A stretch of 64,000 bases of DNA from positions 4,712,001 to 4,776,000 of the forward strand of contig JAMPIQ010000002.1 in NCBI GenBank assembly GCA_024699855.1. The letters run 5' to 3'. How positions within the stretch are numbered: the stretch's first letter is position 1; every line of letters starts with the position of its first letter. Shown piece by piece: positions 7,978-15,131 of the stretch. The position numbers were made by a program, and so were the translations under genes. A model generated the notes under the pieces. It was not told the origin of the DNA and made no database searches. It saw only the letters and a list, made by a program, of their open reading frames with translations. The DNA is from Aphelenchoides besseyi. Its lineage: Eukaryota; Nematoda; Chromadorea; Rhabditida; Aphelenchoididae.

Positions 7978-8470
7978 ATGGCCGATGCAACCACAATGGA
8001 AGTTGACGAGCAGGCGATCGGCGGAAAGAAACGCTTTGAGGTATATTGCATCATCAGTTTGAGTCGATTGTTCTGATTTTAGGTGAAGAAATGGAATGCT
8101 GTAGCTTTGTGGTCGTGGGATATTGTGGTTGGTTTGTACGTTCGTTATGTTTGGAGAATATTTTTAGGTTGATACCTGCGCTATTTGTCGTAATCACATT
8201 ATGGATTTGTGCATTGAGTGTCAAGCGAATCAGGTACGTCGGCTCCTTCTCTTCGACTTTTCATCCGAATCATTTCAGGCAACGGCAAACAACGAGGAAT
8301 GCAATGTTGCATGGGGCGTCTGTAATCACGCTTTTCATTTTCATTGCATTTCGCGATGGCTACGTACTCGTCAAGTTTGCCCGTTGGATAATCGCGAGTG
8401 GGAATTTCAACGGTTGGTTCATGGAAGTTTTCGTGTTCTAATCTTGTGCTTTTTCAGTTATGGACATTAA
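7978..8470 (+). CDS. rbx-1: RING-box protein 1 (RBX1/ROC1), cullin-RING E3 ligase subunit
   Basis: Five exons: 7978-8040, 8083-8127, 8168-8233, 8279-8412, 8458-8470. The last codes only for the tail YGH. The protein is about 106 residues, the usual family size. It has the cullin-binding strand ([17 protein letters not shown]) followed by the RING-H2 domain: [16 protein letters not shown], then [20 protein letters not shown] and [10 protein letters not shown]. All zinc ligands are present, including the histidines of the H2 core. RBX1 recruits the E2 enzyme to cullin-RING ubiquitin ligases in nucleus and cytosol. The identification is near certain because this is one of the most conserved eukaryotic proteins. 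Confidence 0.97.
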
Positions 8471-10089
8471 ACTATTGACCTTATCTATCATTTGTTTTTC
8501 TGTATAAGCTAGTTTTTGGGGAACATAAACAAATTGTCGACAAATTTGATTGCGAATATTAAATGTATGGTCAGCATTGTGTATGGTGTTCAATTTTACG
8601 CTTTCGAGAGTCACATTTTAATGTGTGTATTGTTCTTCGTAACGGCAGCACCGTTTTAAACCGCTCGTTTGACGGACAGACGGGAAGTGAAGTCCGCTCT
8701 TCATAGTCGAAATGGAAAAGTAGCAAAAGGCCATTTAGGATTTCTGCCAAAAGGCGCAAAACATGTGCGGAAGTCGATGGCCGAGTGACGACCGGATTCG
8801 TTCGGTCCCTTTTCCGCATTGACTTAACAGAACGCCCTCTGAGAACGGGGATGTCAAGAAGTGAGACCTGGATGGTCGAAATCCTTTTATTCTCGTAGAC
8901 ATTCATCATACGTTCGGATCTATGGCTGTTCGTCGTCGTCGCTCAGCAATTTCTTCGTACTTAAAACGTTTGACTGAGCAACATGGTGGCTAGTGGGAAT
9001 GACGTCGTTGCAAATGAGCGTCAACACTCCTCCGCATTTCAAGTTGCAAACATCTCATATGAATCGTGTTGAACAAGCGAGAAATGTGTGCAATTACACG
9101 CCCATTCGAACTTGATTTCGGTTATCGGCGAGTCCCAAGCGACTGAAAAGCGGGGCGGTCGAGTTAATTTCCGAAAATGCTCCAAGACCCATTGCTCACT
9201 TCGCTTTCTTTGCCGACCCAGCAGCCAGTTAATTCCCCGTCTGATTCCAACGACACTGATTTCGCATTCTCATTTCGTTGGCTGTTGATGTTCCCGCGCT
9301 GTCGTCTACGAAGAGAACGTGAAGGCCACGGTCGTGGTGGCCACCGGTCGTCCGTACTTTACAATTGTTGAAGTGAAAATCGATTTTTCCCGCCAAAAAA
9401 CGCAACGTTTTCTATTGTGCCAACGGTGGAGGTTTTGCAAGCGGACGTTTTTGTTTGAAGTTTCAAAAAGGACGACTGCTCGTAGGAGTGAAAAAAGCGT
9501 GCCGTGAATTCCTCTCATCTGCGGCCCTTTCACACGACTGCGCGTCCATTTCATGACTTCTCGACCGTCTCAATTGTTCGTTTTTGCTTCTTTTCAACTT
9601 TCCATCGAACTGCGTTCTTAATCTCGTCGTCCGCGGTTCTGATGCTCGCGACGTTGTTAGTCACGGGCACATTCGCACTCCGAGTTATGCAAATTGGGTA
9701 TGATCGTTCGGACGTCGCGTTGCAATTCGCAAAAATGCGGAAATGTCCCCCCAAGGCCTTCTCGCAGGCGTCTTCATTCGCCGCGTTTTGGTTTGTTCGT
9801 CGTGTTCGAGACTTCGCTGCGTCTTTGCCCCAACGGAGAGTCTCGAAATGGCAAAAGTGAGCGGCATGAAATTTCGCCGTCTGAACCGTGTTGTGGCAAA
9901 ATTCGAGCGTTCCGCGTCAATTCCACGGCACACGCTCAAAATTTACCGTTGACGTCAAAGCTTCCACTCGTTGTTTTGGACACCACCGAGATCTCTAATC
10001 GTGTCGTGAACAACCTGCTTCTTTCAGTTTCCCACTTTTCAGGACTGGGTCTTAATTCGAGTTGTTGAATCCGTCGATCGACAGTCGCA
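8471..10089. other. 1.6-kb gene-free region, likely SNAP-25 upstream region
   Basis: Many overlapping frames of 60-120 codons on both strands reflect a local lack of stop codons rather than genes; none shows a domain or coherent splicing. The right half (9000-10080) is CpG-rich with spaced A/T runs. It most likely holds the promoter of SNAP-25. Confidence 0.4.
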
Positions 10090-12289
10090 ATGGCCGACGA
10101 CATTCCGCAAAGTTTGGAGGAAATCAATCTTCGCATGAACCAGACGACCGATGAGGTGAGTTTCCTGAAACAAGTTCTTTAGGTGAGCAGTAAGCAAAGA
10201 AACAAACCTCACGAGCTTCCCGAGCGAATAACTCGACTTCACCGAGAATTCCCAACAACTGGCAATTGCGTTGGGTTTTCGTGGGTTTGATGAAAAGGAA
10301 AGACAGCGCTCATCCATCGACGATAATTGATGATGCAAAGAGTGAGTGGTAGACAGCGGTTTGGGACGCGCAACTGTCCGTGAGGTTCGTCGAGATCTCA
10401 TTTGTGTTTTCTTAAGACCAACGACAATCGTACCAACAGATATGTCCAAACAATTGAAGGAGGAATTGAACTGTTGTCTCACCGTGCTTTCAAATTGCCG
10501 CCACTCGATTCCGTTTGAGTCTCGACGTATTATGTGAACATAATTGTGCTTTCGGTTCGATGATTGTTCGGGGACATTTGAACATATCGGCAAAAACGGT
10601 CGGTTCCGTTTACCACGTTCTCCACAAATCCAACAGAATCCGTCAACTCTTTTTCGCAGAGAAATTGACTAATTTTATTTGGTTCCCGCGGAATGGACTT
10701 ACGGCAACTTGGCGGTTTTGGCCGCTTAATTTTGTGCTCAACATTCCGCGTCTTGTCGTTCACCGTTCGCAGTTTGGCGGCAATGAAATTCGAGATACAC
10801 GGTTCCAGAGTCCACGACTCCCCTTCCGGTTCGACCAAATTGCCGGGTCGAAAGAAGCCATTGAGCGGTTTTATTGTCCTTTTATTGGCTCTCAAGAATC
10901 TCATCTTGTTCGTATGCTCATTCCATTTACTTGACGTGTTGCGTACAGGAGTTGAAGTCATTTAATGAGCTTGTAATAGTCATGCCTCTCACAACGAATA
11001 CCCGTTCCAAATCGACATCACGACAGAGTTCACGAGATGTCCCGGAATTTCGCGCCGTAGGCAACGGAGAGGTCGAACACGATGGACTTCGACTTCCGAA
11101 CGATATGGCCGATGAGTTGAAGACGTTGAATGTTTTTATCGATAAACAAACCTCACAAGTGGGCATTTCGAATCATCTCTTTGCTTACTGCTTCCAAATG
11201 GCTTTGAATCGGTCTAATTTCTAATTTTAGTCGTTGGAAGCAACACGTCGAATGTTGGCGCTGTGCGAAGAGGTAGAATCGAATGAGAAGATTTGACAGA
11301 AGAGAATTTTAGAGCAAAGAAGCGGGAATCAAGACGCTGGTGATGTTGGACGATCAAGGCGGTTGGTTTGAGAACTCGAGCGAATTTCACGGTCCGTTTT
11401 AGAGCAATTGGAACGAGTAGAGGGGAATTTGGATCAAATTAATGCGGACATGAAAGAGGCCGAAGAACATCTGAAGGGAATGGAGAAATGTTGTGGCCTT
11501 TGCGTTCTGCCGTGGAACAAGTAATTTGAGTTCGTTGTTAATCGTAACAACCTTATTTAGACACGACGATTTCGAGAAGAATTCAGAATACGCAAAAACG
11601 TGGAAGAAAGACGACGATGGCGGTGTAATCTCGGATCAACCTCGCATCACAGTCGGCGATTCTTCGATGGGTAAGGACAGATTATAGGCTTGTATCTGAA
11701 GATTCTTGTGTGTTTTAGGACCACAAGGCGGTTATATCACGCGGTTTGTTGTCACTCGAATCAAGCACCTTATCAATGGTATTTCAGAATCACAAACGAC
11801 GCACGAGAAGAGGAAATGGACGAAAACGTTCAACAAGTCGCTACGATGGTCGGAAATCTGCGAAACATGGCGATTGATATGAGCACCGAAGTCAGCAACC
11901 AAAATCGCCAATTGGATCGTATTAAGGATAAGGTTTGTTGTGTGACGTGAAGCCTAATAGTCGGGCATTTGATTCCGTTGTTCAGACGGCGTCCAATGAG
12001 ATTCGCGTGGGAAAAGCAAATGAGCGTACCGGAAAACTAGTCAACAACAAATGAGGCTAAAAGCCGAGGTCATAAAAATGTTTATTTCAAAACGCACGGT
12101 GATGGTTTCTGCTTATCTGAAACACTTTTTGCTAACTGAAATCAAATAAACTGGTTGCGGGAGTGAAAGTCATTCGTGTTTTCTATTCACGTATTTTCCT
12201 CTATCTTTTCAATTTTCCAGGCAAGTTCGAACGAAGTGCGCGTCGAAGGAGCAAACAAACGCACCAGCAATCTGATCAAGAAATCATGA
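10090..12289 (+). CDS. ric-4: SNAP-25, Qbc-SNARE, with alternative first and last exons
   Basis: The common core is six exons: 11231-11272, 11313-11361, 11403-11520, 11561-11670, 11719-11743, 11788-11932. Exon 1a (10090-10155) gives the standard start [20 protein letters not shown]. It carries two SNARE helices ([16 protein letters not shown]... and [20 protein letters not shown]), and between them the linker with the palmitoylation-type cluster [15 protein letters not shown]-25 pairs with syntaxin and synaptobrevin to drive vesicle fusion at the plasma membrane. A second in-frame start exon (10982-11158) and two in-frame last exons (11986-12054, 12221-12289) are described separately. Product length is about 208 residues with exon 1a. 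Similarity to nematode RIC-4 is very high through the core. Confidence 0.95.
10982..11158 (+). CDS. Alternative first exon 1b of SNAP-25
   Basis: A 59-codon open exon starts with ATG at 10982, ends at a GTGGGC donor, and leaves phase 0, the same phase as exon 1a. Its last residues ([18 protein letters not shown]) align in spacing and hydrophobic heptads with the end of exon 1a ([14 protein letters not shown]), so it restores the first SNARE helix while adding about 37 polar N-terminal residues. This would be made from a separate promoter inside the 1.07-kb intron. It is inferred from frame and helix continuity; no transcript evidence is available here. Confidence 0.7.
11986..12054 (+). CDS. 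SNAP-25 last exon, version 8a
   Basis: A 69-nt exon after a TTCAG acceptor codes [20 protein letters not shown] then NK and stop. It completes the second SNARE helix. It is followed by its own AATAAA at 12145-12150, 90 bp past the stop, and before exon 8b. Confidence 0.8.
   Translation, partial: TASNEIRVGKANERTGKLVNNK
12145..12150 (+). terminator. Polyadenylation signal between the two SNAP-25 last exons
   Basis: AATAAA in the context TCAAATAAACTGG lies between exon 8a and exon 8b. Its use would fix the 8a form; skipping it would allow 8b. Confidence 0.6.
12221..12289 (+). CDS. SNAP-25 last exon, version 8b
   Basis: A second 69-nt exon after a strong pyrimidine-rich acceptor (TTTTCAATTTTCCAG) codes [20 protein letters not shown] then KS and stop. 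Same length, phase and register as exon 8a, with about half the residues identical. An AATAAA at 12593-12598 would serve this form. Terminal SNARE-helix residues differ between the two versions (ERTGKLV versus KRTSNLI). Confidence 0.8.
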   Translation, partial: ASSNEVRVEGANKRTSNLIKKS

Positions 12290-12592
12290 TTCTCAACTCT
12301 GTGGTCTACGTACTTTCGATCTCAACGGTCATCTTCAAACTCCTCTTAGTCAATACTCATTGTTGTTACTTAAACATTCGAAAACACTGCACTGGATTTC
12401 ACGTTCCTAGTCAATTTTTCTCATTAAACACAACTTCTTAACGGGCCATTTTCTGTTTAGAAATCACTTTTCTTTCTAACATGACACTCACGATTTTTCT
12501 CCTAATCAGACTTTTATTTTCGTGCACTAGTTTTTCTAGCATAATAATCGTTTACACGCGTTGTATTTCTTTTTTGCTTATACGAGCGGATG

Positions 12593-12636
12593 AATAAAAC
12601 AGAAGATACTCGTTCAAGTTGTGTAATGACTTTATT
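12593..12636. terminator. Abutting polyadenylation signals of SNAP-25 (+) and AKT (-)
   Basis: AATAAA on the plus strand at 12593-12598 and its complement TTTATT at 12631-12636 serve two convergent genes. The 3' ends are only about 30-60 bp apart or may overlap. Confidence 0.5.
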
Positions 12637-12701
12637 TACAAGCTTCAAACTAAACTACTTGGTTATTGGTTTGATAAAAATATTGCTGCTGATCGTTGAA
12701 T

Positions 12702-15131
<2,430 letters not shown>

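Follow-up and report, generated by a model that had tools for sequence, protein, structure and literature searches.

Fusion is driven by the C-terminal half of the SNARE bundle, which is also the half where complexin contacts SNAP-25. Alternative exons are described for two genes of the fusion machinery that come closest to the locus analyzed here. In vertebrates, exon 5 of Snap25 is duplicated, thereby providing the variants 5a/5b (PMC2581893, excerpt). In C. elegans, UNC-75 switches the terminal exons 8a/8b of the syntaxin gene unc-64, with the site promoting exon 8a being placed in intron 7b, downstream of this exon, and the UNC-75 site is given as (G/U)UGUUGUG (PMC4946901, in the part available). 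A stretch related to the UNC-75 site is also found in the available part of PMC3585155. With respect to the protein, I192 of SNAP-25 is assigned to layer +5 of the SNARE helix (PMC4744192, excerpt), and cross-links of the complexin accessory helix to SNAP25 are lost when SNAP25 lacks its 12 C-terminal residues (PMC7116205, excerpt).

Here, we analyzed a ric-4/SNAP-25 gene in a stretch of 64,000 nucleotides (referred to as the window) from a nematode genome of 47.4 Mb in 31 contigs. Judged from the sequence, it is quite probable that the last exon of this gene was duplicated in tandem and that both copies were kept as alternative terminal exons. According to this explanation, the donor of exon 7 would be joined either to a proximal exon 8a with its own stop and a nearby polyA signal, or to a distal exon 8b with the usual nematode ending. 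Either choice would yield a full SNAP-25 with a different membrane-proximal end of the second SNARE helix (layers +3 to +8). That 8a and 8b are both spliced and translated we regard as highly probable.

As for vertebrate Snap25, one gene would provide mutually exclusive SNAP-25 variants by exon duplication. The vertebrate exon 5 is internal, whereas the nematode duplicate is the last exon, carries its own stop and polyA signal and encodes part of the C-terminal zipper region. Being terminal, it does not correspond to the duplicated internal exon of the 5a/5b type. With unc-64, as far as described in the available part of PMC4946901, the locus shares that a SNARE gene has two alternative terminal exons after a common exon 7 and an UNC-75-type motif in the adjacent intron. 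In unc-64, it is the membrane anchor of syntaxin that is exchanged, whereas the nematode SNAP-25 swap would change the SNARE helix.

Gene model and the two last exons

The model of the SNAP-25 (ric-4) gene consists of two alternative first coding exons (1a and 1b), six common exons and two alternative last exons. Together with the sequence motifs considered in the following, its features are:

10090..10155, + strand: exon 1a, alternative first coding exon, N-terminus as in P0001
10982..11158, + strand: exon 1b, candidate first coding exon in place of 1a, similar to the longer N-terminus in C. elegans RIC-4 (P0020)
11231..11272, + strand: exon 2, from the gene model
11313..11361, + strand: exon 3, from the gene model
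11403..11520, + strand: exon 4 with the CCGLC cysteine cluster, from the gene model
11561..11670, + strand: exon 5, from the gene model
11719..11743, + strand: exon 6, from the gene model
11788..11932, + strand: exon 7, second SNARE helix up to the common donor 11932/11933, from the gene model
11935..11942, + strand: UUGUUGUG, match to the UNC-75/CELF motif, begins at intron position +3 and overlaps the common donor, putative role
11986..12054, + strand: exon 8a, proximal alternative last exon with 22 residues and stop, predicted from frame, profile and homology
12145..12150, + strand: AATAAA, candidate polyA signal for transcripts with 8a, from the motif
12221..12289, + strand: exon 8b, distal last exon, ending canonical for nematodes and as in P0001
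12593..12598, + strand: AATAAA, candidate polyA signal for transcripts with 8b, from the motif

The protein encoded with exon 1a and ending 8b is identical to P0001 (source name Aphelenchoides besseyi), which assigns the genome to A. besseyi or a closely related nematode, and the four spliced forms resulting from two first and two last exons comprise 207 or 244 amino acids without internal stop. The gene product is a true SNAP-25, as both isoforms tested reached 80.3 bits for the SNAP-25 family domain PF00835 (cutoff 25) and the 8b isoform, with both Q-SNARE helices, matched solved SNAP-25 over nearly its full length in phmmer (6mdm_H over 4-203, E 1.8e-62; also the C and D chains of 1sfc). 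The Pfam SNARE domain (PF05739) stayed under its cutoff with 20 vs 26.8 bits. Exon 4 encodes KCCGLCVLP, the cysteine cluster of the linker that serves membrane attachment and is a putative palmitoylation site, of which KCCGL is invariant in 17 aligned sequences. The intron between exons 7 and 8a has 53 nt, which is in line with the other short introns of the gene (40 to 72 nt), while 288 nt separate exons 7 and 8b. In the rest of the gene, the single long intron is that after exon 1a (1,075 nt). By eye, two further genes were seen in the vicinity: a small RING-type gene resembling RBX1 on the + strand (~7980-8470), whose short introns end with TTTTAG or TTTCAG, and a protein kinase gene on the - strand (~12700-14500), which converges on the 3′ end of the SNAP-25 gene.

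The donor 11932|GT can be joined in frame to either last exon. Both exons are in phase 0, are preceded by CAG, have a length of 69 nt and end with TGA; they are the same at 42/69 nucleotides and 10/22 residues. The original prediction had proposed two 69-nt terminal exons behind one donor, in the same phase, with their own stops and with related but different last 22 residues; coordinates and translations agree with it, and 8a keeps the SNARE pattern. Also, the AATAAA proposed for each exon was found, as exactly two such motifs are present on the + strand at 10000-12700, one ~90 nt past the stop of 8a and the other ~303 nt past that of 8b; by chance, an AATAAA in 166 nt is not rare (0.117 expected). 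An isoform switch between 8a and 8b is likely.

Coding constraint on exon 8a and endings in other nematodes

Between 8a and 8b, the codon positions 1, 2 and 3 differ in 8, 4 and 15 of 22 cases, respectively. This corresponds to pN 0.325 and pS 0.681, and to dN ~0.43 and dS ~1.8, values that are noisy with 15.7 synonymous sites. The homology of the two exons is visible at the protein level and in register. A free DNA alignment of both exon regions was not significant (score 18 vs a mean of 16.9 and a maximum of 27 in 500 shuffles).

To score endings, a gapless profile was built from 98 distinct SNAP-25 endings of other proteins, excluding P0001 and including the faulty gene model P0047. Among the 59,436 stop-free 18-mers in six frames of the window, 8b ranked first with 34.0 bits and 8a second with 28.6 bits, followed by a third with 16.4 bits. 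With a profile of 95 clean endings, 32.5 bits were obtained for 8a and 38.2 bits for 8b, while all 3,000 Markov copies made of 11933-12220 stayed below the 8a score, the best one having 11.1 bits. Leave-one-out scoring placed 8a at the low end of real endings, 9/95 of which scored below it (median 40.8). Exon 8a retains the equivalents of S187, N188, R191, A195, N196, R198 and L202. A neutral model was started from 8b and adjusted to the observed identity of 42/69; the frame stayed intact in 14% of its runs, and the frame together with all seven residues in 0.01% (2/20,000), with these residues having been chosen with 8a known from positions kept in at least 25/30 nematode-like endings. The loss of the conserved acidic residue at 193/194 was considered as a mark against 8a and was rejected as not decisive, as 27/99 endings have no acid at either position.

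The original prediction had also proposed looking for a duplicated last exon in other nematodes. This found no counterpart: in a search restricted to proteins, no 8a-like copy of another nematode was found, and 0/159 retrieved proteins, among the matches listed, had the 8a ending (no TASNEI or RVGKAN). These proteins comprised 120 of 1,914 matches to the full-length 8a isoform, 29 matches to the ending alone, and matches to mollusc endings (44 matches from 46 candidates). Of them, 145 had endings of 19-24 amino acids (99 distinct), whereas 9 ended with another length and 5 lacked the anchor. The protein entries were clustered at 90% identity and isoforms differing in the ending alone may therefore be hidden; each protein found with the ending alone had many words in common with the upstream helix. 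The sole entry named A. besseyi, P0001, has the 8b ending, and nematode entries with complete endings are closer to 8b (e.g. C. elegans AQSNEVRVESANKRAKNLITK). The genome has two further SNAP-25-like loci, at which no second last exon was seen, the best ending-like frame on the gene strand reaching 8.2 bits in L013 (8.5 bits on the other strand) and 5.1 bits in L014.

Two observations on single entries were made in this protein set. P0022 of Panagrolaimus davidi has a normal body and the unusual ending TESNDVRIAKAHNRTTTLIDG, unlike P0007 and P0017; this ending may represent another nematode alternative last exon or a divergent gene. Furthermore, P0025, P0036 and P0104 are three diverged SNAP-25 copies which are all named RIC-4 a, and for which the sources disagree between Aphelenchoides avenae and Aphelenchus avenae.

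Exon 8a could be a relic tandem copy that has ceased, or almost ceased, to be spliced in, so that functional SNAP-25 would come entirely from 8b; the set of retrieved proteins without 8a, the resemblance of 8b rather than 8a to other nematode endings, the non-significant nucleotide alignment and the low score among real endings would all fit this, but a relic is hard to reconcile with an open frame of the same length, an acceptor, a stop and conserved residues kept despite pS 0.68, with rank 2 of 59,436 in the profile search, and with a neutral rate of 0.0001 for frame and seven residues. We thus consider a relic very unlikely. With all tests combined, 8a looks like a genuine copy under coding constraint, and it is probably a real, unannotated alternative last exon. 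Short duplicated last exons may thus escape automatic annotation, and SNAP-25 isoforms may be under-counted.

The membrane-proximal helix end in nematode and molluscs

Counted from I192, the last exon presumably spans layer +3 to just past layer +8 of the SNARE helix. Exon 8a has T N V A T L at the layers +3 to +8 and exon 8b has A N V A T L, so that both agree in 5/6 layers. A threonine at layer +3 is also present in 9/30 nematode-like endings, a group assigned by id list that includes 8b itself and the faulty P0047. Thereby, the earlier argument that the swap concerns layers setting the fusion drive is weakened. The two endings differ at 1/6 layer positions vs 11/16 other positions (one-sided Fisher P = 0.043), and the surface changes of 8a vs 8b comprise, in equivalent positions, G-K vs E-G at 193/194, E vs K at 197 and K vs N at 201. 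The swap would hence mostly keep the zipper core and mainly alter surface residues. 8a and 8b cannot be told apart by their mean helix propensity (0.449 and 0.446) or by their net charge (+3 each).

As the core layers are nearly constant, the isoforms would be expected to differ in surface partners and not in zipper energy. All 12 C-terminal SNAP25 residues of the complexin cross-link test fall inside the last exon. It is conceivable, and proposed here only tentatively, that the isoforms differ chiefly in surface contacts, e.g. with complexin or synaptotagmin. The position of 8a within the intron before 8b, where it would terminate the transcript early, would also be expected of a poison or premature-end element whose use, or an end at 12145, lowers the SNAP-25 output; since 8a completes a normal SNARE helix with 5/6 layer residues unchanged, which a poison exon does not need, such a role appears highly improbable.

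The original prediction knew of no described alternative C-terminal SNARE helix. This stands for the open-licence papers listed, whose titles and starts of abstracts gave no description of alternative SNAP-25 C-termini, a weak evidence with subscription papers mostly missing. It does not stand for annotated proteins: in five molluscs (Mercenaria mercenaria, Mya arenaria, Dreissena polymorpha, Babylonia areolata and Physella acuta), at least one isoform pair per species, all database gene models, is identical over all 194 or 198 residues before the same boundary and then has different endings. The 8a/8b arrangement is therefore not unique in kind, because these isoforms differ in the same segment. 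Among the eight invertebrate species compared, Biomphalaria, Haliotis and Tubulanus had one ending only (two entries each).

In the molluscs, the alternative part sets in at the same residue as in 8a/8b and comprises 21-22 amino acids. Unlike 8a, the second mollusc ending represents a type of its own, SLxxRVDxANKRAxxILRNQ, and, unlike in the nematode, the second ending of Mercenaria changes the layers +3, +4, +5 and +8. A common origin of 8a and the second mollusc ending was considered, but no sign of it was seen; 8a has SNE instead of SL and looks more nematode-like. That both arose separately is the simpler reading, in a comparison of 22 residues that cannot decide it.

Two further variations were noticed in these entries. 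In Mercenaria mercenaria (P0102/P0103, P0076/P0077), the same gene also has two versions of a stretch in the first SNARE helix (one being EAKEAGITTLVLLD), and this swap combines with either ending. The tubeworm proteins P0151 and P0156 (Lamellibrachia, Ridgeia) each have an ending that resembles a different one of the two mollusc types, and the ending swap may thus extend to annelids.

The two nematode exons could also mainly supply two 3′UTRs by alternative polyadenylation, thereby affecting localisation or stability while the protein change matters little, a reading that overlaps with two retained terminal exons because both exons would be used; while an own AATAAA after each exon and nearly the same core layers agree with it, 12/22 residues differ, with charge changes at the equivalents of 193/194 and 197, and molluscs vary the protein ending here, too, so that we consider it unlikely. 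The natural swap of the C-terminal segment would provide ready pairs to separate zipper energy from surface contacts, with core layers that hardly vary between the nematode endings and do vary between those of molluscs.

Possible control of the exon choice

In a further step of the proposed explanation, a neuronal CELF (UNC-75-type) factor bound to UUGUUGUG at the common donor would bias the choice between 8a and 8b. We consider this step doubtful, and confidence is lowered because in unc-64 the known site lies past exon 8a and not before it. In unc-64, the motif follows exon 8a and regulation is shown in the available part of PMC4946901, whereas the SNAP-25 motif precedes exon 8a at the donor and its regulation is putative. 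According to the excerpt of PMC12005262, exon skipping can occur with a site that covers a 5′ splice site, and in the unc-16 test this effect was independent of unc-75.

The motif (G/U)UGUUGUG, which was looked for after the sequence was seen, is present six times on the + strand and twice on the - strand of the window; one of these matches overlaps the common donor, with 0.003 expected per 53-nt intron. Between 8a and 8b there is none. Seven models of other species read past the exon with K and then V (P0030, P0034, P0042, P0047, P0056, P0124 and the mollusc-like P0159), as expected for an intron at the same place, and the motif at the donor, for which Val-Cys-Cys would be expected, is not encoded in these seven. 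In the genome, a strong match to CELF RRM3 was obtained at two loci, among 16 RRM matches. As a CELF regulatory site over the common donor, UUGUUGUG is given as a lead only.

On a wider scale, the SNAP-25 last exon might be a recurrent evolutionary switch which was separately duplicated in the nematode and in molluscs, with neurons choosing tips that differ in complexin/synaptotagmin contacts. The nematode choice would be set by a CELF factor as for syntaxin, and both t-SNAREs would change their membrane-proximal ends together. This scenario we rate as somewhat unlikely.

The acceptors of 8a and 8b scored 3.5 and -0.1, respectively, vs 8.2-11.4 for ten constitutive acceptors, using a weak matrix with these ten training sites scored in sample. 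In the window, 24% of the AGs scored at least as high as the 8b acceptor and 9% at least as high as the 8a acceptor, and with the same weak matrix AGs further downstream (12540, 12461) outscored the exon acceptors. Low acceptor scores of this kind may fit regulated sites.
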